Assembly (NCBI RefSeq): GCF_014695385.1
Contig: NZ_JACJOD010000033.1
Coordinates: 62,001-126,000 of the forward strand
Source: Trichocoleus sp. FACHB-46
GTDB taxonomy: Bacteria; Cyanobacteriota; Cyanobacteriia; FACHB-46
Reading direction: 5' to 3'
Length of the DNA stretch: 64,000 nucleotides
Shown here: positions 49,773 through 64,000 of the stretch, piece after piece
How positions within the stretch are numbered: position 1 is the stretch's first letter
Layout of the letters: each line of letters opens with the position of its first letter
Translations under genes and position numbers: made by a program
Notes under the pieces: generated by a model
The model's database searches: none
Seen by the model: only the letters and a program-made list of their open reading frames with translations
Told to the model about the DNA's origin: nothing

Positions 49773-51122
49773 TTGGCTCTTGTCCACCCATCTCGGCAAA
49801 CTCGTTCCTTCTCGGCCCGTCCCGGCGGCGGGCTGAAGACTTCTTATACTCGCATTGAAGTTCACGGGCATTTGCAGCGATCGCTCTCCAACCTAGAGCG
49901 AGTTCCCCTCGACAAGTTGCGTGCTTTCAGTCGCACAGTTCCTGTACGCAAAGCGATTCGACGCATTGCCAACGGGGTACTGGCAATGCCTTGGGTGATT
50001 CAACCTCCCAAGGAACTGGCAAAAGATGACGATGCGCTGCACTATGCTGAAGAGCTCAAGAAGGCTCTGCTCAAGCCAAATCGAGCTGAGCATAATACTT
50101 ACTCAAAGCTGGTTAGAGCCATCATCACTGAGATGTTGGTACTAGGATTTGCGGCGGTGGAACGGCAACCAGGCAGAGAAGGTACTCAACCATTCTGGTT
50201 GTGGATTGCCAACGGAGCTGGCATTAAGGCAAATAGTGATTGGCGGCCAGAGATTGAAGGAATTATGCCGCGGTTCTATGATTGTTCCTCCAGTCGTTCC
50301 GGCAAAGACTGTGTGCCGCTGATGAGCAAGGACTTGTTCATCATTCAAAGTGAGACCAACAGTTACGAATATGTGCCTCCCAGTCCCTTAGAAGTTGCCT
50401 ATCGTTTGATTGAAGCTTGGTTAGGGGTCGGAGACTACCAGTCGAACACAACTAGTCGGGCGGTGCGAAGCTACATGATTAGCATTGAGGGTGATGATGT
50501 TTCACCAGAAGATGTAGAGTCTTTCCGCCAGTATTGGGAAACTGACGTTGAGCAAAAAGGCAAGGTGCCCATCATTGGTGGTGTTGTAAAGAAGACGGAA
50601 CTAGGAGCCAAGAACGATGAAGAGCTTTATCCCAAATTCACGGAATACTTGCTACGGATGATTGCGCTATCTTTCGATTTGACGACGCGCGACTATAACA
50701 TCACCGAACCGGACAATAGGGCTACTGCGGGTATTGCCGCAGACTTCACCTTTGGTGATGCCATTTTACCGATGGCAACCACCATTGAGGAGCATTTAGA
50801 TATAGAAGTGATTGACTTCTTTGCACCTGGCTTCCACCTAGCTCTTGCTGATACTGAACCACGAACTGAGAAGGAAGAAGCCGAGGTAGCAGGTAATCTG
50901 TTTGAGCGGAAGATCATCACCCGCAATGAGAGCCGTATCCGGACAGGTCATGATCCAGTACTCAACGGTGATGTCTTTAGTGATGGAACTCCCCTAGAAA
51001 CGGAAGAAGATACAAAAGACGGTTCTGAGGTGAAGCTAGTTACGGACGTTAAACCTGCACCTGCCAGCAAGATAAAGCGCAATAGAAAAGCAAATACATC
51101 ACAGTTATCCTTGTTCGGTTAG
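49773..51122 (+). CDS. Phage portal protein (HK97-like)
   Basis: 449 aa from TTG 49773. Family features: PVRKAIRRIANGVLAMPWVI near residue 55 (clip/stem entry), LVLGFAAVER, PPSPLEVAYRLIEAW and the long helix region with DYNITEPDNRATAGIAAD, which is the place of the portal's stem helix and membrane-facing turn. Portals are dodecamers at the capsid vertex through which DNA is packed and ejected. Packaging partners (large terminase) and the major capsid are not in the window. It is the sort of protein some Avs sensors recognise. Confidence 0.75.
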   Translation: MALVHPSRQTRSFSARPGGGLKTSYTRIEVHGHLQRSLSNLERVPLDKLRAFSRTVPVRKAIRRIANGVLAMPWVIQPPKELAKDDDALHYAEELKKALLKPNRAEHNTYSKLVRAIITEMLVLGFAAVERQPGREGTQPFWLWIANGAGIKANSDWRPEIEGIMPRFYDCSSSRSGKDCVPLMSKDLFIIQSETNSYEYVPPSPLEVAYRLIEAWLGVGDYQSNTTSRAVRSYMISIEGDDVSPEDVESFRQYWETDVEQKGKVPIIGGVVKKTELGAKNDEELYPKFTEYLLRMIALSFDLTTRDYNITEPDNRATAGIAADFTFGDAILPMATTIEEHLDIEVIDFFAPGFHLALADTEPRTEKEEAEVAGNLFERKIITRNESRIRTGHDPVLNGDVFSDGTPLETEEDTKDGSEVKLVTDVKPAPASKIKRNRKANTSQLSLFG

Positions 51123-51182
51123 CAGTAATTTAGCGATTGCGATCGCTTCTCTGACCTCGTCTAAAAAATCATTCCTGCCAAT

Positions 51183-51250
51183 TCTAGGGTTAATGAGGGC
51201 GAGTGAGAGCTATGAGGTTTTAGTCGGATTGCACGGCTCAGACAAAAGCT
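51183..51250. repeat. Dispersed repeat, weak copy I (module 5)
   Basis: GAGGGCGAGTGAGAGCTATGAGG, then TTGCACGGCTCAGACAAAAG resemble module 5 and its 3' flank (GCACGGCTCAGGCAGATG in copy E). Marginal. Confidence 0.3.
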
Positions 51251-51338
51251 AGGCCCTGAGATTAGCCCAGAATCCACAATAGAGAGATTAAATTTTAGCG
51301 ATCGCATCCTTACCGCCCCAATGGTTAAGTCGATGCCA

Positions 51339-54300
51339 TGTTCAACTCGGCCCCTCGCAACGGAAGGATTTCAACCACTTTGTATTGACTGGTACTTGAA
51401 CCTCCTTCTCGTTTCAATTCAGTCCCTCACAATGGAAGGATTTTAGCAAACCTTGATATGAGTTACCCAAGTTATGAATTGGGTGTTTCAATTCGGTCCC
51501 CCGCAACGGAAGGATTTCAGCCCAAGGCTCTATGCCCCTTAAAGGATACACAACACTCAGGTTTCAATTCGGTCCCTCCCATCGGAAGGATTTCAGCCTG
51601 AGTATCACCAAAAGTTACGAGAAGGATTCTTACAGAAGTTTCAATTCGGTCCCTCCCATCGGAAGGATTTCAGCACCCTAATATTTGGCACCGCAGCAGT
51701 GGTAAAAGCGTTTCAATTCGGTCCCTCCCATCGGAAGGATTTCAGCTCTCTCAAGCCTTGTAACTACAACAAACCTGACGGGTTTCAATTCGGTCCCTCC
51801 CAACGGAAGGATTTTAGCAATTCTAATCATGATTGACAGGGGGGCAATGCTGGTTGTTTCAATTCGGTCCCTCCCAACGGAAGGATTTCAGCGACTTCCT
51901 CCAGATTGACCGGGTGTTGAGTGTCCTGTTTCAATTCGGTCCCTCCCATCGGAAGGATTTCAGCCGGTGAACCCGGTGATCGCGGTTCTCGCTTTCAGCA
52001 CCCCGTTGTTTCAATTCGGTCCCTCCCATCGGAAGGATTTCAGCTCAACCGCTGGTACTCAAATGCCTTCGCAATCATTGTTTCAATTCGGTCCCTCCCA
52101 TCGGAAGGATTTCAGCGTCGGAGGGTTTAACGGGATCTCCCTTACCTCGATTGTTTCAATTCGGTCCCTCCCAACGGAAGGATTTCAGCGGTTTAACCTA
52201 GAAGCCCCCGAGTGGTACTGGGAATATGTTTCAATTCGGTCCCTCCCATCGGAAGGATTTCAGCTGGCTGGCGTAAGAAGCAAAGGCTCGCTGAACTGTG
52301 TTTCAATTCGGTCCCTCCCAACGGAAGGATTTCAGCTCATTCTGATCGGCATGGCTTGAAATTATTTGCTGCGTTTCAATTCGGTCCCTCCCAACGGAAG
52401 GATTTCAGCGGCAAAGCGGGGCTGTACCAATTCAACGCGAGGATGACGTTTCAATTCGGTCCCTCCCAACGGAAGGATTTCAGCGGCTTACTGATTCCTT
52501 CTACAGATTGGCAATTCTCCGGTTTCAATTCGGTCCCTCCCAACGGAAGGATTTCAGCCGCCCAATGCTTCATGGATAGAGCCTCGATACTCATCGTTTC
52601 AATTCGGTCCCTCCCAACGGAAGGATTTCAGCATTACACCGATACCGTGGGCTATAAGGAGATGAACATGTTTCAATTCGGTCCCTCCCAACGGAAGGAT
52701 TTCAGCGAGCTAGAAGCTAAGCGAGTGATTGAGCAGCTTTTAGTTTCAATTCGGTCCCTCCCATCGGAAGGATTTCAGCTCGCGGAAGTGGGCGGTATGA
52801 CACAGAAGCTTAACCTTGTTTCAATTCGGTCCCTCCCAACGGAAGGATTTCAGCAGGTGCTACTTTATCGAGGGTTGCTACCATATCGTCTGTTTCAATT
52901 CGGTCCCTCCCAACGGAAGGATTTCAGCGAAAGTTAGAGTGAAGCTCAGTGATGGAACTCTAAAGTTTCAATTCGGTCCCTCCCAACGGAAGGATTTCAG
53001 CGCCTCCCATTGAGGTAAAAAAAAACCTGTCAATGAGTTTCAATTCGGTCCCTCCCAACGGAAGGATTTCAGCAACCTGTCTTCCTCGCCCAGCTCCAGC
53101 GACTCTTTGTTTCAATTCGGTCCCTCCCAACGGAAGGATTTCAGCTACACAAGGTATTTATCTCTAGGATCTAACTCGATGTTTCAATTCGGTCCCTCCC
53201 AACGGAAGGATTTCAGCGATTGCGTTTCCTCCAGTCGGTGAATGATCCGCTCCGTTTCAATTCGGTCCCTCCCAACGGAAGGATTTCAGCTGCCGCGTCT
53301 TGCCTCTATCCTGTTCAACGTCCCGGGTTTCAATTCGGTCCCTCCCAACGGAAGGATTTCAGCGGATTGAGTGCTCCCTACACTGTCACAGGAGATAAGT
53401 TTCAATTCGGTCCCTCCCAACGGAAGGATTTCAGCCTGTACCGCCCGCCCAGCACCAATTCAAAGTTCGAGCTAAATCGTTTCAATTCGGTCCCTCCCAA
53501 CGGAAGGATTTCAGCCTAAGATTGCAGCCAACAAAGTAATCTCTACCGTGTTTCAATTCGGTCCCTCCCAACGGAAGGATTTCAGCGAATCCCTCCAGGG
53601 GGTGACGCATGGATAGTCAAGTTTCAATTCGGTCCCTCCCAACGGAAGGATTTCAGCCTTCTGATTGCTGGCTATGCGATCGCCTTCAACTACGTTTCAA
53701 TTCGGTCCCTCCCAACGGAAGGATTTCAGCCTCAAATAGACTGCTTTGGGCCTGTTCGTTAAAAGTGTTTCAATTCGGTCCCTCCCAACGGAAGGATTTC
53801 AGCGTATTTGAAGACCCACTGGGTTATTCAGACGGTGTTGTGTTTCAATTCGGTCCCTCCCAACGGAAGGATTTCAGCGCGCCAAGAAGCCAGCTTGGAC
53901 GACCAACGAAAAGCTGTTTCAATTCGGTCCCTCCCAACGGAAGGATTTCAGCCGATCGCTCAACCAATCTAGAAGGCCACCATACCAGTTTCAATTCGGT
54001 CCCTCCCAACGGAAGGATTTCAGCTCAGATCCCGCCGCACATAGAGCAGGTGATTATCAACGTTTCAATTCGGTCCCTCCCAACGGAAGGATTTCAGCCT
54101 CCAAGTCCGTTCTTCCAGAAATGCTTCAATACTGTTTCAATTCGGTCCCTCCCAACGGAAGGATTTCAGCCCCTGTTTCAATATCCTCTGTAGGCGTAAT
54201 ACAAAAGTTTCAATTCGGTCCCTCCCAACGGAAGGATTTCAGCTTACTAAGGCGTTTTTGCCCCCTTCCCCTAACAAGTTTCAATTCGGTCCCTCCCAAC

Positions 54301-54755
54301 GGAAGGATTTCAGCAACGTTAAGGTGTAGAACTCTGAGGCGATGCCTAAGTTTCAATTCGGTCCCTCCCAACGGAAGGATTTCAGCCTGGCATCAGTGAG
54401 GATGGTGCTTGCGCTTTTAGAGTTTCAATTCGGTCCCTCCCAACGGAAGGATTTCAGCCTGCGATCGCCCCATCCATCTCTACACCCCAAGCCGTTTCAA
54501 TTCGGTCCCTCCCAACGGAAGGATTTCAGCTCTCTACTGCTTCGCCCACAAAAACCAGCACTTCGCTATCAGTTTCAATTCGGTCCCTCCCAACGGAAGG
54601 ATTTCAGCCGCGAAGAGTAGTTGGCAGGGGTGCCGTTGTTGTTGGTTTCAATTCGGTCCCTCCCAACGGAAGGATTTCAGCATGGCGGCCTTGAGTTACA
54701 GTTGGTAGCCTATTATGAGTTTCAATTCGGTCCCTCCCAACGGAAGGATTTCAGC
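51339..54755 (-). CRISPR. CRISPR array, 47 repeats of 37 bp, 46 spacers of 34-43 nt
   Basis: In the plus direction the repeat begins GTTTCAATTCGGTCCC and ends GGAAGGATTTCAGC. The first three copies from the left (51339, 51411, 51485) are degenerate, marking the distal end. The array is therefore read on the minus strand, starting near 54755 beside the cas operon, and each crRNA would carry a 5' handle ATTGAAAC. The repeat can fold a 7-bp stem with a three-base loop. Eight copies have a loop base change (GTT to GAT on the minus strand): repeats 4-6, 9-11, 13 and 20; all others have the majority form. Repeat type and neighbours fit type I-G. Confidence 0.97.
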
Positions 54756-54894
54756 TGCGGGGTGCTTTATCCCTTGCCATATAAAGTTTTCTAGGTTCAG
54801 GTGCGCGGATTTGCATAAATTCTTGTACTTATTTACAAGCTGTCCAAACCATAGGGGTTTTAGACTCACTCTCAGCTCTCATCCTGTAAGTATT
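54756..54894 (-). promoter_or_regulatory. CRISPR leader
   Basis: AT-rich 139-bp region between the youngest repeat and csb2. On the minus strand it contains GCGCACCTGAACC and AACTTTATATGGC just before the first repeat, which look like leader elements of other cyanobacterial arrays as I remember them. It should hold the array promoter. Confidence 0.6.
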
Positions 54895-56409
54895 TCAGTG
54901 AACGCGCGGATTTCCTGTGCTTAGAGTTGTTGCAGTCACTGATATAACCTTATTCTGAGCGCTCGGCTGTTTAACACCTAACCACTCGCGCATAGGGGCC
55001 ATCGCACCCAAGCCGTAGTGGGCAGCATAGCCCAAGATAATCGGACCAGTCACTGGGGTTGAAAACCTCAAGGTGACTCGATAGCCTACTCGTCCTACCT
55101 TCTTCCCTTGACGACAGTCGGACTCCCATTCCCAAAACTTTGGAAATGGTTCGCAAGATGCTATCACAGCTATTGCATTATCCATAATGAGTGCTAACCC
55201 TTCTTCGTGCTCCTGGTAAATTGGATGACCTTGCAAGTTTAGCCAAGGTAAATGTTGTAGATACTGAAGCACCTGATGTTCTGGGCTGTCTTTTTGATAA
55301 TGCTCTGTTAGCATGCGTGGTTTACCACGACGAACTGTAGGAAATCGTGAGAGAAAGAAGGGAGTACAAGATATCCACTGGTTAAATTTTTCTTCTTTCT
55401 GTCCCAAATCAGCCAACGCCAAAGAAATGACATAGCCACGAGCAACATTGAACAAATTAGTGCAGTTCGCGATCGCAGCAAGAGCTTCTGGGCCATACCC
55501 CATCCGGCTATAAAGCTTCACTTGTTCAATATAGCGGCCTGTACGGTCTGGTACACATTGAAAAATGGTATGGTCATGATTCTTGCTGGGCTCGCCCATC
55601 TCCTGACCCGTAAAAACAGGAGCAGGACATCGACTGACTAAAACCTCATGTAATCGGTGGGTAAGCTTCAGGGCTAACTTGAAAGGCAGTCGAGGCGACG
55701 CTGAGACAGCCAGAGTAATTGTGTTTTGCTTTTGCCAGATTTCCTGCTGTATTTGAGGTTTTAGTGTATCGATCTGATAAGTGGCTTGGCGAATACCAGG
55801 AAAAACAGCCGAGCGATTAACTCCATAATTCTCATGAGCAGATAAGTTCAAGGCATTCCAGAGCGTGTCTGGATCTAGTTCTGGATCTGGAATCGATACA
55901 ATGCGCGTCCCTTGAGGATCAGGTTGAGCGCTGGATTCAGGAGCTTCTTCAACTAGGGAAAGTGTTGCAACCGATTCTTTCCGACCAAAATAGGTTACTC
56001 CTGATAAGCACAAACTTAATACCAGCTCTTCAGCTTCGGATAGGGTTGCTGACCAGTGAACGTGTAGCACATTCTGAGCGCTGGACATGAGCAGTCCTGC
56101 TGAGTAAAGAGTTTTTCCTGGTCCTGTTTGGGCTGTCTTCAGATCCACTTGAGGACGCGGGCTCCGGTGCTGAATGTAAGTTACAGATGGGAGGGTATAA
56201 CTGGGAAGCACTGAAGCTAACTTATGCAGTATTCCCTTCAAAGTCAGTTGATGTTTGTCCGCGAGTTTGACGTTATAAGCTCCCGCTACAATCGCTCGAA
56301 GAATGCGCCACGGAGCAGGAGGCCAGTCAATCACACCTTCAGAGTGGTGATTTCCCCAAGCACAGGCTTGGTATTGATTCGTGTGAAATTGAATTTCGAT
56401 GTGTATCAT
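54895..56409 (-). CDS. csb2: Csb2, type I-G Cas5-Cas6 fusion
   Basis: 504 aa. The start MIHIEIQFHTNQYQACAWGNHHSEG, with IDWPPAPWRILRAIVAG, is the hallmark of GSU0054/Csb2. The N-terminal part is Cas5-like RAMP and the C-terminal part (APMREWLGVKQ) the Cas6-like RNA-processing half. It would cut the repeat transcript and cap the crRNA 5' handle. It is the last gene of the operon, directly upstream of the array leader. Confidence 0.9.
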   Translation of the reverse strand: MIHIEIQFHTNQYQACAWGNHHSEGVIDWPPAPWRILRAIVAGAYNVKLADKHQLTLKGILHKLASVLPSYTLPSVTYIQHRSPRPQVDLKTAQTGPGKTLYSAGLLMSSAQNVLHVHWSATLSEAEELVLSLCLSGVTYFGRKESVATLSLVEEAPESSAQPDPQGTRIVSIPDPELDPDTLWNALNLSAHENYGVNRSAVFPGIRQATYQIDTLKPQIQQEIWQKQNTITLAVSASPRLPFKLALKLTHRLHEVLVSRCPAPVFTGQEMGEPSKNHDHTIFQCVPDRTGRYIEQVKLYSRMGYGPEALAAIANCTNLFNVARGYVISLALADLGQKEEKFNQWISCTPFFLSRFPTVRRGKPRMLTEHYQKDSPEHQVLQYLQHLPWLNLQGHPIYQEHEEGLALIMDNAIAVIASCEPFPKFWEWESDCRQGKKVGRVGYRVTLRFSTPVTGPIILGYAAHYGLGAMAPMREWLGVKQPSAQNKVISVTATTLSTGNPRVH

Positions 56410-56455
56410 GAATCTTATCCCTATAGCTTCTAGCCGTTCAGCAGGATTTCACCGA

Positions 56456-57460
56456 TCATTCAGTAGCAGAAGTTCCGTCCTCCTCTTCAGCAAACTGCAC
56501 CTGGTCATTCGGGACAACCACTCTTACCTTGCTAAACAAATCTGAACACTCGCCAATGGCTTCTTTAACTTGTTGCTCCAAAGTGTTGAGCTCTGCCAGT
56601 GGCTTCAAGAGCTTCTCAGCTTTAGGGATCAAGTAGCACTCTGTACGAAGCGTCACGGCATCAGATAGTAAGCGGCGCACTAGATACTCGCTGAGTATCT
56701 GAATCAAGTGCTTAGCCTTTGCATCCAAATTAGATTTATCAACCAAGCGAGTATCAATCACAAACCGCCCTATGTACCGCTCAGCCTTGAAGCTTTCACG
56801 CACGTAGACGATGTTGCCTAAGCCTGCCTCACTCGGCTTCTGTATGGCTTTGTCCTTTTCACCCCCTTTCTTTTTGTCCTTTTCAATAGCAAACATATGC
56901 TCTGTTTTGACCCCTCGACCGCGAGCTGATACTGGATCATGGACTGCACCTCCAGTCGGCATAGAGACGGCATTTTCTGCAACAAACTCACCTGAGAGAA
57001 CACGAGGAATTCGATAAATTCCCGCAATATGTGTATAGAAACTGCCCAGCACAATGCTCATCGGACACAGCGTAAAAACAGCTTTATAAATGCCTTGATC
57101 CCGTATTCGCTGGCGTAAAGCTTCTCGAAACCGTTGGTCATCAAGTCGCGCATGTTTATTCTTCAGCAGATATCCAGTGCCCAATCGATGCGGTAGGTCT
57201 ATTGTGCTAGCAACGTACTGCCCAGATTCTGTATAGATTTCAACGAAAGGTAATCCTTCAAGTTCAGGAATTAATGTGTGATTTACTGCGTCCCAAATGC
57301 TTTCTTCAATCAGATTTGCTGTTGCTTGAGGAGTATGCAGCAAAACATCAAGCCGTTGCTCCCAAGGTAAGTATGCTTGAGACACCCCTACATCTAGAAA
57401 AGTAGGCGGCTTGACCGTTGGTAAGGCAGAGTCAAATTCAACCGTGATGACATTAAGCAT
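56456..57460 (-). CDS. csb1: Csb1, type I-G Cas7 backbone subunit
   Basis: 334 aa from ATG 57460 (MLNVITVEFDSALPTV), 8 bp inside the end of csx17; a longer frame to 57532 is an artefact. LPHRLGTGYLLKN and HDPVSARGRGVKTEHM are typical of GSU0053/Csb1. It polymerises along the crRNA to form the Cascade backbone, whose thumb contacts flip out every sixth spacer base in type I systems. Confidence 0.88.
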   Translation of the reverse strand: MLNVITVEFDSALPTVKPPTFLDVGVSQAYLPWEQRLDVLLHTPQATANLIEESIWDAVNHTLIPELEGLPFVEIYTESGQYVASTIDLPHRLGTGYLLKNKHARLDDQRFREALRQRIRDQGIYKAVFTLCPMSIVLGSFYTHIAGIYRIPRVLSGEFVAENAVSMPTGGAVHDPVSARGRGVKTEHMFAIEKDKKKGGEKDKAIQKPSEAGLGNIVYVRESFKAERYIGRFVIDTRLVDKSNLDAKAKHLIQILSEYLVRRLLSDAVTLRTECYLIPKAEKLLKPLAELNTLEQQVKEAIGECSDLFSKVRVVVPNDQVQFAEEEDGTSATE

Positions 57461-59492
57461 TGACTTCTCCAAATTGATAAAAAGGTTGACAAGGAAACAC
57501 CAACGCCAGAGCACACCTCTTTCCGATCGCAATATGCTCGGGAAGTACTACTGGCTTTTGCACAGCTGCTAGTTGCCGACTCAAAGGCACTGTTGATCCA
57601 GTCAACAAGCCGTTCACTGTCTGAGCTGTTAGAGCCACGTCACGGCACCACTGAAGAGAGGCAGCATATTTATAGAGCTCTGGCAAAGGTTGAGTACTAG
57701 AATGTCGAGCTAACTTCGTAGGGCTTTTGCACAAAGCAAACCCAAGCGCCAAATCCAAGATGAGCTGGTCATTCGTGCGTCCTGCAATAAAGGCAGCGAT
57801 CGCATCAGGGCTTGCCCAATGGGTCCAGCCAAAAGAAGGGTGATACTCTTTGTCCGTGCTCCAAAGCTGCAACAGCGACAGGCATAAAGCTTCTAGCGAG
57901 GCAGTCTTAAGCCTGTATTTGTGATCATGAGACCAGAATCGAGTGCCACTCTTCGGAACATACCGTGCGGATGACAGTAATTCTCGGAAGGGACGAAAGG
58001 AGCGCCCAGTACCTTTGTGGGTTAGTGAGGTGCTGGCTAGAGCAGCTGCCAATTCAACCTCCGCGATTGGGTATTCCTTGTAGACTGCCTCAACCCATTT
58101 CTCGCTCAGTTGGGGTGAGGGGGGTATCTTAGCCTGGATTCGGCTGTGCAAAATTTCTATCTGCCCTAATAGTTTGATTGCCGTCGCTGTCTCTGCATTA
58201 CCCTGTTGTAGTTGATATAGCGTTTTGTGGAGCGCTGTTAGCAGATTGTATTGAGACTGGGACTGTTCTTTAGTGGGCCGAGCTCGAAACCGCCATTCCC
58301 CTAATTCAGCTCCGTAATCTGACTTAAGCGGTGTTGCCAAGCCAATATAAACTAAATAATTGCCCTGCCCTTTACGCTTCCAGAGGCCAAAACGAGTAAA
58401 CCGAGAGAATCCTAATGACTCACTTCTTTTAGTAAGCTCATTAAGCATATCGGTAGTGTCAACTACCTGGTTTTTGAGGCGAAATGAGAGGTAAGTTGTT
58501 ACTCTTTTCTGAAAAACTTTCCAGTCCCGAGGCTTGCTCCACAGAGGTAACCAGATTTCATAAGCACGTCCAGTGCGATCGCTAGTATCAGCAGTACCTG
58601 AATTGACCTCTAGTAGGAGTGGATAGGATGCCAGAGTATGTTCTTGATCTCCTTCATTTTGAATTTCATTACGAGGAATGCTACTGCCTGTGAAAGTTGT
58701 AGCTCCCTCCAAGTAAAGAATTAAGTCGATAGGGTTGGCAAGCTGCGAGGATCGTCCTTGATTGTTTATGTAATCCTCTAAAGACTTGTCAGAGGGAGCT
58801 AAATCATCAAAATAATCAGCTGCAGGGTATATGTGTCCCAATAGCCCTTTGAGTACCAAAGTCTCTGGCAACACTTTACCTAGTACAGCAGCCCTGATGA
58901 ATGCTTTTGCCTCGATTGATGGTTCTCCAGTTTCTAAATCCCATAGTTTGCTACAAGCCTGGAAGTAAACCGTACAAAAGTCAGTAGTTCCGACATTTCC
59001 GCCGGTTCCCAACAAGTCGTTTTTATGAAACTCAGCTTCTTGTTTTGTTTGAGTTAAAAGCCCTACTGCATCAATCCACTCCAGCAAATAAGAATTACTG
59101 ACCTTGCTAGTTATTAAGGGCATCATGAGTAGCTTCTTCTTATCTGAAGATAGACCTTTCGTGTCAAGGGGTTGTAAAACTCCTTGCAGTTCTTGATACC
59201 CTTCGCGCATCAATGCATAACGCTGAGCCTTGGACGCTAATACAATTTCTAGTTCCTTTGTGTTGCTAAAAATACTCTTTCCATTCCAAGGACTTGCAAA
59301 AGGTTTCGGTTGATACTGAAGGAGTTTTTCAACCAGTGACTCAGTAGAATCAATTTCTAAATGAAAGCAATCATTTGCCCAATACCCTACTGCACCAGAT
59401 AAACGCAAGAGACCAACGGCTTTCAACCAGCCAATCGCGTTCGTGGGCGTGAGGTGGGGAAAAGCAACTGCATTAGCTATTGCTGCGGTCAT
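57453..59492 (-). CDS. csx17: Csx17, type I-G Cas8-like large subunit
   Basis: 679 aa, in the size range of Csx17/Cas8u2. Motifs LTPTNAIGWLKAVGLLRLSG at the start, TDRTGRAYEIWLPLW and FSRFTRFGLWKRKGQGN fit the family. It should recognise the PAM and hold target DNA. The start overlaps the end of cas3 by 20 bp and its stop overlaps csb1, so the operon is translationally coupled. Confidence 0.88.
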   Translation of the reverse strand: MTAAIANAVAFPHLTPTNAIGWLKAVGLLRLSGAVGYWANDCFHLEIDSTESLVEKLLQYQPKPFASPWNGKSIFSNTKELEIVLASKAQRYALMREGYQELQGVLQPLDTKGLSSDKKKLLMMPLITSKVSNSYLLEWIDAVGLLTQTKQEAEFHKNDLLGTGGNVGTTDFCTVYFQACSKLWDLETGEPSIEAKAFIRAAVLGKVLPETLVLKGLLGHIYPAADYFDDLAPSDKSLEDYINNQGRSSQLANPIDLILYLEGATTFTGSSIPRNEIQNEGDQEHTLASYPLLLEVNSGTADTSDRTGRAYEIWLPLWSKPRDWKVFQKRVTTYLSFRLKNQVVDTTDMLNELTKRSESLGFSRFTRFGLWKRKGQGNYLVYIGLATPLKSDYGAELGEWRFRARPTKEQSQSQYNLLTALHKTLYQLQQGNAETATAIKLLGQIEILHSRIQAKIPPSPQLSEKWVEAVYKEYPIAEVELAAALASTSLTHKGTGRSFRPFRELLSSARYVPKSGTRFWSHDHKYRLKTASLEALCLSLLQLWSTDKEYHPSFGWTHWASPDAIAAFIAGRTNDQLILDLALGFALCKSPTKLARHSSTQPLPELYKYAASLQWCRDVALTAQTVNGLLTGSTVPLSRQLAAVQKPVVLPEHIAIGKRCALALVFPCQPFYQFGEVNA

Positions 59493-61680
59493 TTTTCACT
59501 TCCTCTTCTCGATATTTAGATGCTTTTACATCAGCGTTACGAACCAGAGCTTCGAGATAGACTAATTTGAAGAAGCCATACTTTTCGAGCAATTCTTCAA
59601 TTTGTAAATCCCAATCCTCAAAATCTCCTGCTAGAGATAGTTCAACAGAAGGCAGTATTTCACTATTTTCAATTTCGACTTCACATAGTTGACTGCCTAT
59701 CTCAACTCCCCTCACAATCCTTAGGCTGCAATCTTCTTGGGGATTATTGGGCATTAGGCTATCACGGACTTTACCATGATGAGCAGCAATTAGATATTGT
59801 GCTAGGAAGGGAGCTCCCTGCGCAGCGGCAGCAAGTGCACTTGCCATCTCATGCCGATATCCATTCAGTTCGCTTGCATGACCATAATTTTTTGATTTTG
59901 CTAAGAGGTTTCCTTTTGCTCTGGCGTAAGCTTGCCAAAGTTGATGCGCCTTGCCCCAATCATGCCAGCGGGCACAACGGCATAATTCCTCCGTTAGAGG
60001 CTGAGACAAACCGAGATGCTGGAGAAAAGGAATTATCTTTTGCAAGCAGTCTTCAGTATCTTTCAGATGAACTCCTAGCTTTAAGCTGTAGGAGAAACGT
60101 CGATCGCTGAATTCAGGCTCTAACTGCAACTTGTATCGATTAGGATCAGGTTTGTCTTTAGGGTTTGCTGTCCAACCTCGCTCATGGGAATACCCACCCT
60201 GGTCCAATGGCAGCCACACAACATCCCCACTAGTCGGCCTGGCTTTCTCCCACCTGTCCTCACCCCAAATGCAAGGGGTGACATTATAGGATTGACAGAA
60301 ATCTAATAATTGTTTAATAGGCACAGGGCAAAGATATCTCTGCATTGGTAGTTGATTAGGTTGCTCAGTTGACCAGAATACTAAGACCGTAAAGTTTGTA
60401 GTTTCTCGAATGAAATCCGAAACCGTTGATGAGCCACGAAGGTTTCGTTTCAGATAATGAGTACAAAAAAATGTTTCTAAATGTTGCTTAGTTAACAGTC
60501 GGTGGGATATGTCCAGCTGAGGTAATGCGACTTTGGAAAGATGGTGAAGACTAGCATCAGTCAACTCTAGTAAACGGTTCCGAGTATCTTGGCACTCTAA
60601 ATCGCTGTATGGAATAGCCTTCCAGTTCTGCTGATAGTCCAGCCAGCGAATTTCTACGTGATTGCTTGTTCGCTTGCGTCCACAACGCCCGCACCGCTGC
60701 ACGAACGAAGACCAAGGGCACAGTTCAGTAATTAGCAAATCTGCATCTAAATCTACCCCTGCTTCAACAACCTGAGTGGCGACAATGATTCCCTTGTAAT
60801 CTTTGAGCTTCTTCTGTAACACTTCACGATCGATACCCAAAAAACGGCTGTGAATGACTAGCGGCTCCAAGTCGGCCAGTAACTCGCCAATTTCTCTCGC
60901 CCGATCAACTGTATTCACAACCATTAGGGATAAAGTGTCTGGCGTATGCTTTGCCCTTAGTAAAACAGCAACATCCTTAACCCCTTCCACACTTGCTCTG
61001 TACACAGGCTTTGGTCGAGTTACCTTAGCATTTAACTCTTCATGTGCAAAATCTATTTTATTGAGGTCAAAACGCTCTATTTTTAACTCCTTAAGTGGGC
61101 GCTCATCAAAGGTTGCTGACATTAAGCACAATTGAACGTTTCCGAAGGTGCCTAAGTCCTGCCAATGTTTGTAAAGCTGGACTAGAGTACTGTACGCAAC
61201 GCCTGTCAACTGAATTTCATCGAGTACCCATCGACAGTCATTAGTTAGGGCTGCACAGTGTAAAGGTCTCTGCGCCCAGGACACCCCAAACCCACGATTG
61301 AGAGCCCGAGATAACAGTTGATCTTGGGTACCTATCAAAATGGCAGGCTGAGTTAGATCTTGTTCAAAGCCATGCTCTACCTTACCTCCTTTAAGGCAGT
61401 AAACCTGAATCGGCAAACCTGATGCTTTTACTACTCGTTGAGTATTTTCATAAACCTGATCAACGAGTGACCGAGTGGGCAATGCATAAATTAGTCGCGT
61501 TGTTGATGGCTCACCAATCTTGTGGGAGTAAAGCCAAGGAACAACTGTCCCTGACTCCTTTCCTGCCCCTGTAGGTGCACGAATAACAGAGACGAGCTTA
61601 CCGTCCCAACCGGAAAATCGTTCTTGCCAGGGGTAGGGAGTAAACCCTGTAACCTGCTTAAAAAAGTCTTTGTAGTTCAC
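59473..61680 (-). CDS. cas3: Cas3 helicase-nuclease with C-terminal HD domain
   Basis: 735 aa, GTG start at 61680. The helicase motifs are first: APTGAGKES (Walker A, about 36-42), WVLDEIQLT (DExH-like), MSATF and QRCGRCGRKR (motif VI). The HD nuclease is at the C-terminus (CARWHDWGKAHQLWQ, about residue 570, with AAHHGKVRD later), the arrangement known for type I-G. It unwinds and degrades DNA after Cascade binding. First gene of the operon, with its own promoter at 61749-61777. Confidence 0.92.
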   Translation of the reverse strand: MNYKDFFKQVTGFTPYPWQERFSGWDGKLVSVIRAPTGAGKESGTVVPWLYSHKIGEPSTTRLIYALPTRSLVDQVYENTQRVVKASGLPIQVYCLKGGKVEHGFEQDLTQPAILIGTQDQLLSRALNRGFGVSWAQRPLHCAALTNDCRWVLDEIQLTGVAYSTLVQLYKHWQDLGTFGNVQLCLMSATFDERPLKELKIERFDLNKIDFAHEELNAKVTRPKPVYRASVEGVKDVAVLLRAKHTPDTLSLMVVNTVDRAREIGELLADLEPLVIHSRFLGIDREVLQKKLKDYKGIIVATQVVEAGVDLDADLLITELCPWSSFVQRCGRCGRKRTSNHVEIRWLDYQQNWKAIPYSDLECQDTRNRLLELTDASLHHLSKVALPQLDISHRLLTKQHLETFFCTHYLKRNLRGSSTVSDFIRETTNFTVLVFWSTEQPNQLPMQRYLCPVPIKQLLDFCQSYNVTPCIWGEDRWEKARPTSGDVVWLPLDQGGYSHERGWTANPKDKPDPNRYKLQLEPEFSDRRFSYSLKLGVHLKDTEDCLQKIIPFLQHLGLSQPLTEELCRCARWHDWGKAHQLWQAYARAKGNLLAKSKNYGHASELNGYRHEMASALAAAAQGAPFLAQYLIAAHHGKVRDSLMPNNPQEDCSLRIVRGVEIGSQLCEVEIENSEILPSVELSLAGDFEDWDLQIEELLEKYGFFKLVYLEALVRNADVKASKYREEEVKNDRSNS

Positions 61681-61706
61681 GGTGTAGTTAAAGACCCTTC
61701 ATGAGG

Positions 61707-61727
61707 TTGTTTAAGTCTTTCTATCAT
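61707..61727 (-). promoter_or_regulatory. Putative target of the CRISPR-like regulatory RNA in the cas3 leader
   Basis: On the minus strand this segment reads ATGATAGAAAGACTTAAACA and matches the pseudo-spacer at 61851-61834 in 16 of its first 18 bases; mismatches at positions 6 and 12 only. It is preceded by GTC (possible PAM). It lies about 20-45 bp downstream of the -10 and ends 27 bp before the cas3 start codon. Confidence 0.6.
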
Positions 61728-61748
61728 GACGGTAATTTAGTTTTTACC

Positions 61749-61777
61749 AATATATTCCCCCAAACCTCTACTGTCTA
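61749..61777 (-). promoter_or_regulatory. Probable cas operon promoter
   Basis: On the minus strand TAGACA (61777-61772) and TATATT (61754-61749), each five of six matches to consensus, are 17 bp apart. It lies between the CRISPR-like mini-array and its predicted target. Confidence 0.65.
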
Positions 61778-61783
61778 GGGGAA

Positions 61784-61888
61784 CCATAAATTCAGTCCCA
61801 CTCTGTGTGGGATTTTTCTTAGCCTACTTCTGTTTTAAGGCTTTCAATCATGTTTCAACTTAGTCCCAGCGCTGCAATTAAACAGGGG
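61784..61888 (-). ncRNA. CRISPR-like mini-array (two degenerate repeats, one 31-nt pseudo-spacer)
   Basis: Pseudo-repeat 1 (61852-61888) matches the first 16 plus-strand bases of the array repeat in 13 positions, and its minus-strand 3' end GTTGAAAC differs from the handle ATTGAAAC by one base. Pseudo-repeat 2 (61784-61820) keeps AATTC-GTCCC (10 of 11) and replaces the stem by TCCCAC/GTGGGA. The pseudo-spacer is 61821-61851. A TTATAA at 61921-61926 could serve as the -10 of its promoter. The spacer's 5' half matches the cas3 leader. This is the form of CRISPR-resembling repressor RNAs (creR/CreA class). Confidence 0.6.
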
Positions 61889-62129
61889 AGTAGTCGATTT
61901 ATGGTATCACTCTGAGCCACTTATAATTAAGGTTGTTCTCGGAAAAGAACTTAAAACTCTGATACTTAAGAGGGTTCTAACTCATTGAACAATTGAATGA
62001 ATGTCCTTCCAGAGGTCCTGTTGGGATTGAAGACTTGGAATAATGACTGGGTCTGAGTTGGGTTCATCAGTCCAATCCTATTTTGCATAATTTTTATATT
62101 CATACTTCACATTTTGATATAGCAGGATG
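61889..62129. other. Stretch between mini-array and lysozyme gene
   Basis: Contains the probable promoter of the mini-array (TTATAA, 61921-61926) and AT-rich sequence downstream of the lysozyme gene. No ORF or structure that I would support. Confidence 0.3.
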
Positions 62130-62921
62130 TCAAAGTCCTATATCAGCGATCGCCCGCTCAATGAAGCCCATAAACTCATCAATACCGTTGTCTCCCCCGT
62201 TCACTAGTAACCTAACTCGTCGCCAGTTGTGGTTGCGAGCTGCCAGAAACACACCGCGATCGCTGAAGTAGAGGGCTAGTATTTTGGCTCCAACGACTGG
62301 ATCTAAGGCGAGATCTGGCTTCTCCTCCAAAGGCAGGTGTAAGCGTAAGCCGTAATCTCGGTAGTTGGCACGTCCGGTGATCTGAATAAAACCACGGCCA
62401 TGATACCTACATCCATCACCCGCGCAGACATTGCCCAAGTCATCGCGCCATTCATAGTTTTGGGTGAAGTACTCGTCATCTCCATATTCCTTGATTGGGC
62501 GAAATCCACCTGTTTCAACACCAATGGTGGCGATCGCCGCAACGAGAGTGGGCTTGTCTAAGATATTGTGTTCTGCCAAGGCAGTGAGTACTGCGGGTAA
62601 ATGACTTTGAACTTCGTCTAGAGGACAGTTCAGAATAGAAGCCACAGTCCTAGGCTCAACCATACCCAGTCCTGGCAACTGCTTACACTCGATCAACTGC
62701 TCAGCGATCGCTGGTGTGATTTCTTCATCGGCAAAATCGAAAGCATTACAGAACTGCTTCCAAGCCGCTTCTGTGATTGGCCCGTACAACCCATCTGCTT
62801 TTCCACCTAGCAGGCCCAGAGCTTTGAGGCGAACTTGGATTTGTTGAGCTAGTTGGCTATCATCCAACAGATGCTCAATCGGGATCGGAACGCCTGACTG
62901 GCAAATGTCTTGTAATTTCAC
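62130..62921 (-). CDS. Lysozyme-like protein with N-terminal peptidoglycan-binding domain
   Basis: 263 aa. Residues about 22-65 (QIQVRLKALGLLGGKADGLYG) form a peptidoglycan-binding helical domain. From about 100 there is the GH19/lysozyme-like domain found also in the 43666 gene: ATIGVETGGFRPIKEYGDDE with the likely catalytic Glu, and GRGFIQITGRANYRDYG. Probably an endolysin or spanin-side lysis enzyme. It is on the minus strand, unlike other phage genes, and may instead be a host-type hydrolase. Confidence 0.75.
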   Translation of the reverse strand: MKLQDICQSGVPIPIEHLLDDSQLAQQIQVRLKALGLLGGKADGLYGPITEAAWKQFCNAFDFADEEITPAIAEQLIECKQLPGLGMVEPRTVASILNCPLDEVQSHLPAVLTALAEHNILDKPTLVAAIATIGVETGGFRPIKEYGDDEYFTQNYEWRDDLGNVCAGDGCRYHGRGFIQITGRANYRDYGLRLHLPLEEKPDLALDPVVGAKILALYFSDRGVFLAARNHNWRRVRLLVNGGDNGIDEFMGFIERAIADIGL

Positions 62922-63014
62922 AATTATCTTTTAATATAAACATGAGCAAATTAACATAATTAGGTTATTATCGCACTAATACTCATCTATAACTTTTTCC
63001 AAGAAGGTTAAACC

Positions 63015-63058
63015 AAGCGGGGGACCAGACTTTATGACTGGCTCTCGCTTTTAATTTT
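63015..63058 (+). terminator. Hairpin with T-tract upstream of the prohead-protease-like gene
   Basis: AAGCG (63015-63019) pairs with CGCTT (63046-63050), with inner CCAG/CTGG, followed by TTTTAATTTTT. The ATG is 10 bp on. Confidence 0.6.
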
Positions 63059-63067
63059 TGAGGCATC

Positions 63068-64000
63068 ATGGGCGCTAAGACTTCAGATTCAACTGTTCAA
63101 GCGGCAGGGCGACAAATCTCCAGCAAAAATGCAACTCGTCTTAGTAAAGCCTTTGCCGAAATTGGCAAGCTGCTCATTGATGCAGGGGTGGTTGATAAGC
63201 AGTCGCTAGAATCCTTGTTTGGCGAAGAGAATACTACTGCTAAAAATGAGCCCGAAGTGAGTGTTGAGGCAGATGCTCAAGCACCGATCGCCGCAGCAGC
63301 GGGAGAGGAAAGTTTTACAACCCAGGTAAAACGAGTCACCTGGCATGATCGCTTACGTACGACCTTGCGGTTCTTTGGCAATCGTTATGAGATGTTGCAT
63401 AACTGCCCAGAAAATGACTTCGCTCGACGAGTGGGTGTAGACACTGATCGAGAGACTGCGATCGCCCAACTGCGCGATGATCTCATTGCCATTCTCGTGG
63501 AACTCACCAAGGATCATCCAGGCCCTTCGGATTCAGATAGCGGCTACTACTATAGTCCCTACATGGAACTTGCTAGTAGTTCTGGGGAGAAGGTAATTAC
63601 AGTCGCTTTCGATTGCCCCACTCAAGCGATCGCTGCCGCTGCTAGTCGAACCACAAACCGCCGCCCTGTTGAAGGGGTGCTTTTCCGCATTGACGAACCG
63701 AGTGAAAGTGCTCCTTCTGTCGGCCCTGGATTGCCTCTTTATGTGCCCAAGGCCGTTGCTGAGGAAGCCCTTAGTACAGTTAGCGGCTTGCCTCTTGATG
63801 CCCACGACAATCTAAGTCAGCATTCAAATCCAGACATTGCTGGAGTGATGCTGAGCGCTGCAATTCAGGGCAATGACTTCACGGTCAGCGGCTATCTCTA
63901 CGATTGGAGTCAAAGCGATAAGGTCGCCAAAATTGCTGCCAATAAAGAGCAGCTTGGCATGAGTATGAATGCCAATGCGATCGGACACGAGGCCGAGGTA
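63068..64000 (+). CDS. Phage prohead-protease/scaffold-like protein, partial
   Basis: ATG 63068; the frame is open to the window end (311 codons so far). An Ala-rich helical N-terminus is followed by VEGVLFRIDEPSES, GLPLDAHDNLSQHSNPDIAG and EQLGMSMNANAIGHEAEV. The His in DAH, the strand between, and the Ser in LGMS have the order of capsid maturation proteases, which cleave scaffold and capsid. The major capsid gene would be expected next, outside the window. The class is a suggestion from motif order. Confidence 0.5.
   Translation, partial: MGAKTSDSTVQAAGRQISSKNATRLSKAFAEIGKLLIDAGVVDKQSLESLFGEENTTAKNEPEVSVEADAQAPIAAAAGEESFTTQVKRVTWHDRLRTTLRFFGNRYEMLHNCPENDFARRVGVDTDRETAIAQLRDDLIAILVELTKDHPGPSDSDSGYYYSPYMELASSSGEKVITVAFDCPTQAIAAAASRTTNRRPVEGVLFRIDEPSESAPSVGPGLPLYVPKAVAEEALSTVSGLPLDAHDNLSQHSNPDIAGVMLSAAIQGNDFTVSGYLYDWSQSDKVAKIAANKEQLGMSMNANAIGHEAEV

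Follow-up and report, generated by a model that had tools for sequence, protein, structure and literature searches.

A candidate CreR element upstream of cas3 in a cyanobacterial type I-G CRISPR-Cas locus

Known crRNA-like regulators and the type I-G effector

CreR, a cas-regulating crRNA-like RNA, is partly complementary to a promoter of the cas genes; autorepression by this route is established in types I-B, I-E and V-A (PMC13131331). CreR is also covered in a review (PMC12737573). Type I-G is mentioned in neither PMC13131331 nor PMC12737573, and an earlier mention is possible in the primary CreR paper or in the 2023 mini-array survey. Type I-B guides with lengths of 20-24 nt bring about repression but no interference, and the CreA guide of CreTA modules works through an 11-bp seed (PMC10989794). 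The type I-G effector has no Cas5 at the 5' end of its crRNA and has Cas3 bound before the target is met; each Cas7 accommodates six bases, of which the sixth is flipped out (PMC9638904). Processing by its nuclease Csb2, with the cut placed 4 nt beyond the hairpin, leaves a handle of 8 nt; the crRNA is 72 nt long, and TTN is the PAM reported in vivo (PMC9638904).

The element considered here lies upstream of cas3 in the window, a 64,000-nucleotide stretch of DNA from the cyanobacterium Trichocoleus sp. FACHB-46. Judged from its sequence, it is very probably a type I-G CreR that would autorepress the cas operon. Mini-arrays were reportedly described by Shmakov et al. in 2023, with I-F1 the type tested. 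As in CreR, a single spacer stands between two degenerate, ectopic repeats inside the cas locus, and the spacer is partly complementary to the cas promoter region, next to a PAM, with no toxin gene from target to cas operon. It differs from known CreRs in its type I-G effector, in pairing that is held to three Cas7 segments and in the cyanobacterial PAM GTY. With the CreTA/CreA modules of haloarchaeal type I-B it shares a degenerate repeat pair, a crRNA-like guide and Cascade as the presumed repressor; in contrast to them, its target leads into cas3 rather than a toxin RNA. Its pairing spans 17 nt, shorter than the 20-24-nt repressing guides of type I-B. It also recalls the Racr elements, phage RNA anti-CRISPRs made of solitary repeat units (PMC10651486), in being repeat-like RNA outside an array, here in a prophage region; unlike Racr, it has two repeats and a spacer matching the cas leader instead of a lone repeat. 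The initial annotation had proposed a crRNA-like RNA sitting on the cas3 leader and knew of no such case for I-G in a cyanobacterium. The literature consulted likewise yielded no I-G CreR, but the arrangement is not peculiar to this locus: it is widespread in I-G and files as CreR, having each of the defining CreR traits that sequence can reveal.

The mini-array and its target in the cas3 leader

The locus is assigned to type I-G by four genes, each above its NCBIfam cut-off, in the order cas3g-csx17-csb1-csb2 on the minus strand, followed by a 47-repeat array.

59473-61680, minus strand: cas3g (TIGR02621, 505 bits against a cut-off of 400)
57453-59492, minus strand: csx17 / cas8g (TIGR04113)
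56456-57532, minus strand: csb1 / cas7g (TIGR02570)
54895-56409, minus strand: csb2, a Cas5-Cas6 fusion and pre-crRNA nuclease (TIGR02165)
51339-54755, minus strand: CRISPR array, 47 repeats of GCTGAAATCCTTCCGTTGGGAGGGACCGAATTGAAAC, spacers of 34-43 nt

Adaptation genes (a cas4-cas1 fusion, cas2), which are common at I-G loci and not required for I-G effector identity, were not found from the array to cas3. The sole Cas1 match in the genome (G000:C43:5751-6317) lies on a different contig, inside a 1002-aa ORF. The I-G locus and an endolysin gene (62130-62921) are flanked on one side by a phage portal gene (49773-51122) and on the other by a 557-aa ORF, beside which stand capsid-like and connector genes (window 49773-64000 and beyond; L054, L101). 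In three related genomes (L113, L114, L115) the portal, 557-aa-type ORF and capsid genes are so closely spaced that a CRISPR locus would not fit among them. The CRISPR-Cas locus of the window therefore seems to have been inserted into a prophage head-gene cluster or to be carried by one. No such phage genes occur near the related I-G loci L003, L094 and L096.

The mini-array, the cas3 promoter region and the target follow one another toward cas3.

61852-61888, minus strand: pseudo-repeat 1, with the 8-nt handle GTTGAAAC at 61859-61852; 13/16 match to the 3' part of the repeat; equivalents in L002, L003, L094 and L096
61821-61851, minus strand: pseudo-spacer, its first 17 nt (61851-61835) being the pairing segment
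61784-61820, minus strand: pseudo-repeat 2, a hairpin TCCCAC-ACAGA-GTGGGA (61812-61796), 4 nt (CTGA) and a degraded handle
61792-61859, minus strand: predicted mature CreR RNA of 68 nt, from applying the I-G crRNA geometry of PMC9638904 (8-nt handle, 3' end 4 nt past the hairpin) to the sequence
61749-61777, minus strand: predicted cas3 promoter, TAGACA (61777-61772)-N17-TATATT (61754-61749)
61728-61730, minus strand: presumed PAM, GTC
61710-61727, minus strand: target in the cas3 leader, its first 17 nt forming three 5-nt segments

All coordinates in the initial annotation were confirmed when the minus strand was read again; the pseudo-spacer and pseudo-repeat 2 are as it described them. Pseudo-repeat 1 ends in GTTGAAAC, the array repeat in ATTGAAAC. 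Its last 16 nt, GGGACTAAGTTGAAAC, are the sole match outside the array with at most 3 mismatches to GGGACCGAATTGAAAC in the 64-kb window, where 0.43 such sites are expected; its hairpin is weak. Pseudo-repeat 2 reads in full TCCCAC-ACAGA-GTGGGA-CTGA-ATTTATGG and has the folding geometry of the array repeat (stem, 4 nt, position of the 8-nt handle). It has no intact handle, which would not enter the mature RNA. The hairpin and 4 nt recur at the equivalent site in 12 other cyanobacterial loci; in L096 the hairpin (TCCCAC-CTAGT-GTGGGA-CTAA) was identified by eye, the automatic choice of stem being wrong there. With L096 left out for that reason, the predicted units measure 66-77 nt among loci, compared with the 72-nt I-G crRNA of PMC9638904. 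Rfam gave no match over 61500-62200. A terminator role for pseudo-repeat 2 was considered and rejected: the one call that resembles a terminator concerns the opposite strand, and the T-run is absent in L002 and L003.

The leader segment 61727-61710 matches the pseudo-spacer at 16 of 18 bases, with mismatches only at bases 6 and 12, as first reported. Perfect matches to ATGATNGAAAGNCTTAA occur at just two sites in the 6.56-Mb genome, the pseudo-spacer and the cas3 leader, and the pairing score of the window was reached by 0/200 dinucleotide shuffles. The target is preceded by GTC and lies just downstream of the predicted promoter, beginning about 13-15 nt past the likely transcription start as placed from the -10 element, so a bound complex would block early elongation. 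The promoter, once called good, is present, but its match alone is at chance level (1.1 expected in the region); its support is spacing conserved in four relatives. An imperfect palindrome, TTCCCCTAGAC...GTTTGGGGGAA (61783-61755), overlaps the -35 region, and its core TGGAC...GTTCA is kept in L002, L003, L094 and L096, which suggests a second regulator, either a protein or an RNA structure.

When both segments are read from ATG (MIESLK and MIERLK), the third base of a codon falls at position 6 and again at position 12. Because of this, and of the chance-level promoter call, the window alone could not decide between explanations and relatives were needed. The initial annotation overlooked the codon coincidence in setting aside a plain duplication; that rival is indeed rejected, by way of the relatives.

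Recurrence and coupled change in related loci

Other type I-G loci were scanned for a repeat-like handle followed downstream by a 5+1 match (five bases paired, the sixth passed over). Cyanobacterial loci were tested only where their own repeat is known, except that L002 was tested with the repeat of L003. The architecture is present in 12 more cyanobacterial loci (13 with the window), in two deep cas3 clades, and each of the 13 scores above 200/200 dinucleotide shuffles.

Clade A comprises the window, L002 (an uncultured cyanobacterium), L003 (Halomicronema sp. CCY15110), L094 and L096. For L002 and L003, with cas3 about 65% identical, the layout is the same. L003 has GGGACTGAATTGAAAA, ATAATCAAAAGCCTTAA, a hairpin repeat and a promoter, then GTC ATTATTAAAAGACTTAA; L002 has ATTGAAAG and GTAATAGAAAGCCTTAT, then GTC GTAATTGAAAGACTTAA. 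L094 and L096 are two further instances. In this clade cas3 follows directly after the target; read by eye, 17-18 nt separate the -35 and -10 elements in 5/5 loci, and in all of them the PAM begins 16-18 nt beyond the -10 element. Spacer and leader change jointly at positions 1, 3, 7 and 18, with 6 and 12 always mismatched. L094 and L096 have close kin in L092 and L095, from which the element is absent, as it is from another close relative, L093.

Clade B, with cas3 about 32% identical to that of the window, contributes 8 loci with wholly different spacers (L042, L044, L045, L046, L050, L085, L086, L088). Over all 13 loci, matches at positions 1-5 number 13, 13, 10, 13 and 13, with 0 at position 6; at positions 7-11 they number 13, 12, 10, 12 and 13, with 1 at position 12; and at positions 13-17 they number 11, 11, 9, 12 and 9, falling near background past 17. 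When rescored without bias (17 positions of equal weight, PAM ignored), 11 loci pass. In that set 21/34 mismatches fall at positions 6 and 12, a concentration at sixth positions that bears out what was expected of relatives; the binomial value is 6e-12 if loci are independent, which is illustrative only because related loci are not. Mismatch at 6 and 12 in the cyanobacterial loci (25/26) exceeds the 75% expected from drift, an excess that may reflect shared ancestry. A phase test with other skipped positions does not discriminate between phases by locus count, the signal being strong whichever phase is assumed; the informative statistic on phase is the position-wise count.

The PAM is GTC in 11 and GTT in 2 of the 13 cyanobacterial pairs, and one or the other precedes 11/11 targets where the PAM played no part in selection. 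Array spacers searched against phages gave no protospacers from which a PAM could be derived independently, the two newest spacers found no protospacer in IMG/VR, and a search of IMG/VR for relatives by cas3 found none. By the shuffle test the element is absent from L041, L043, L051, L083, L087, L090, L092, L093, L095 and L097, and the cas3 tree calls for about seven gains or losses.

Several loci show variant arrangements. In L086 the target is doubled in tandem (-573 and -602 of cas3), each copy with GTC, for one mini-array spacer. L047 has a mini-array upstream of cas3 (L047:2655-2790) in which the spacer is preceded by a tandem pair of repeat ends and followed by a hairpin repeat; no target was located nearby. 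Short ORFs stand between target and cas3 in clade B at L044:9258-9569 (103 aa) and L050:10785-11123 (112 aa); they have no Pfam match, and their C-terminal halves are alike by eye.

Spacer and target change together. Within clade A, own pairs match better than cross-locus pairs, with 4/120 permutations equally good; in the other loci own pairs match at 13.1/15 and cross pairs at 4.0/15, with 0/20000 permutations. Pairing thus appears to be maintained by selection, as comparison of own with swapped pairs indicates, and independent change of pseudo-repeats and leader, which would have spoken against the initial reading, was not seen. Outside clade A, spacer and target are unlike those of any other locus yet matched within each, and a conserved operator or reading frame therefore cannot explain the matches.

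Outside the cyanobacteria, a similar element occurs in 3 of 18 loci having some upstream sequence: L010 (Puniceicoccaceae, PAM TTC), L014 (Gemmata, TTG) and L015 (bacterium RI_54, TTA). The test for these three, which used a generic repeat end and 60 shuffles per locus, was less stringent than that applied to the cyanobacteria. Their PAMs agree with the TTN of PMC9638904. Two of them match at 6, and in L010 bases 6 and 12 are both matched, which makes mismatch at these positions tolerated rather than obligatory; among all 16 loci, base 6 is matched in 2 and base 12 in 2. The sixth-position rule first drawn from the window thus holds as a concentration in cyanobacteria but is not obligatory everywhere. 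L015 is mismatched at 6, 12 and 14, with spacer and target on opposite strands. Its target, in the region L015:4107-4613, is upstream of a sigma-70 region 4 gene that itself precedes cas3, and the guide may act through the sigma factor. In the region L010:3917-4844, the mini-array sits close to where a DUF3368/PIN-like gene meets a UPF0175 gene, and its spacer has a 16-nt match, with a TTC PAM, to the start of the former. This looks like a CRISPR-repressed toxin and resembles CrePA (CRISPR-repressed protein toxin), which the window does not; with its target in a PIN/DUF3368 gene rather than the cas operon, it shows that not every I-G mini-array is a CreR. Nothing comparable was found in the 1.2 kb upstream of the plasmid I-G loci of Thermus and Cereibacter.

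Alternative explanations and the proposed mechanism

Four other explanations were weighed against a type I-G CreR. A CreTA-like module, in which repression by the guide is aimed at a toxic mini-gene whose start coincides with the target, and not at the cas operon itself, is very unlikely. The L010 case lends it some color, and in the window a 16-codon ATG frame with ATA and AGA codons begins exactly at the target. This frame, the sole candidate for a toxic RNA or mini-gene there, is not conserved, the leader start codon having been lost in 3/5 clade A loci (GTA in L002, ATT in L003, ATA in L094), and cas3 comes directly after the target.

It is highly improbable that the two segments are a plain duplication or paired sites for a regulatory protein. 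They are near-identical direct repeats 124 nt apart, and the palindrome over the -35 region would suit an operator. An operator would, however, be conserved among orthologous loci, and the 5+1 register persists outside clade A though the sequences differ wholly between loci; moreover, copy 1 always follows a crRNA handle and copy 2 always follows GTY or TTN.

If the segments were short ORFs or encoded a leader peptide (ATG ATT GAA AGC CTT AAA and ATG ATA GAA AGA CTT AAA), the mismatches would fall at third positions of codons. Both are in frame in the window, and the second ends with TGA over the cas3 GTG. The loss of the leader ATG just described removes this explanation, clade B has no common frame, and so faint a prospect hardly counts. 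Scarcely credible, too, is a decayed second array with a spacer self-acquired from the cas3 leader and now functionless, for although the repeats are degenerate and such a spacer would match the leader, spacer and leader changed jointly over deep divergence, the match covers just 17 nt and skips bases 6 and 12, and pseudo-repeat 2 kept its hairpin and cut site while losing an unneeded handle.

The relatives, the 5+1 register and the coupled change thus support a CreR reading. Under it, the one-spacer array with degenerate repeats would be transcribed toward cas3 and cut by Csb2 at both pseudo-repeats, releasing a roughly 68-nt RNA that carries an 8-nt handle and, at its 3' side, a hairpin. This RNA would load on Csb1 (Cas7) and Csx17 (Cas8), and the complex would recognise GTC and 17 nt (three 5+1 Cas7 segments) just downstream of the cas3 transcription start. 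Once bound, it would block transcription of the cas3-csx17-csb1-csb2 operon. The complementarity is confined to three segments, which would fall short of a full R-loop and leave the DNA bound and uncut. A feedback role is envisaged in which repression would be relieved when the effector is occupied by array crRNAs or inhibitors.

A broader proposal is offered tentatively, as a possibility on the doubtful side. Pairing that is capped at 17 nt and left unmatched at 6 and 12 may constitute a selected I-G safety code of exactly three Cas7 segments, with which the Cas3-carrying complex could sit on its own operon without firing Cas3; CreR might then be general in I-G, with lineage-specific PAMs readable from leaders.

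For type I-G gene-repression tools, such elements would offer natural, presumably non-cleaving guides. They also yield a usable PAM prediction, GTY, for cyanobacterial I-G, for which we know of no PAM. The 5+1 pairing rule of the I-G cryo-EM structure is visible in which bases evolution keeps paired. RNA-guided autorepression of cas genes would now take in type I-G, whose effector was the last within type I to be characterised. A question that follows is how a Cas3-carrying effector keeps from cutting the operon that encodes it.
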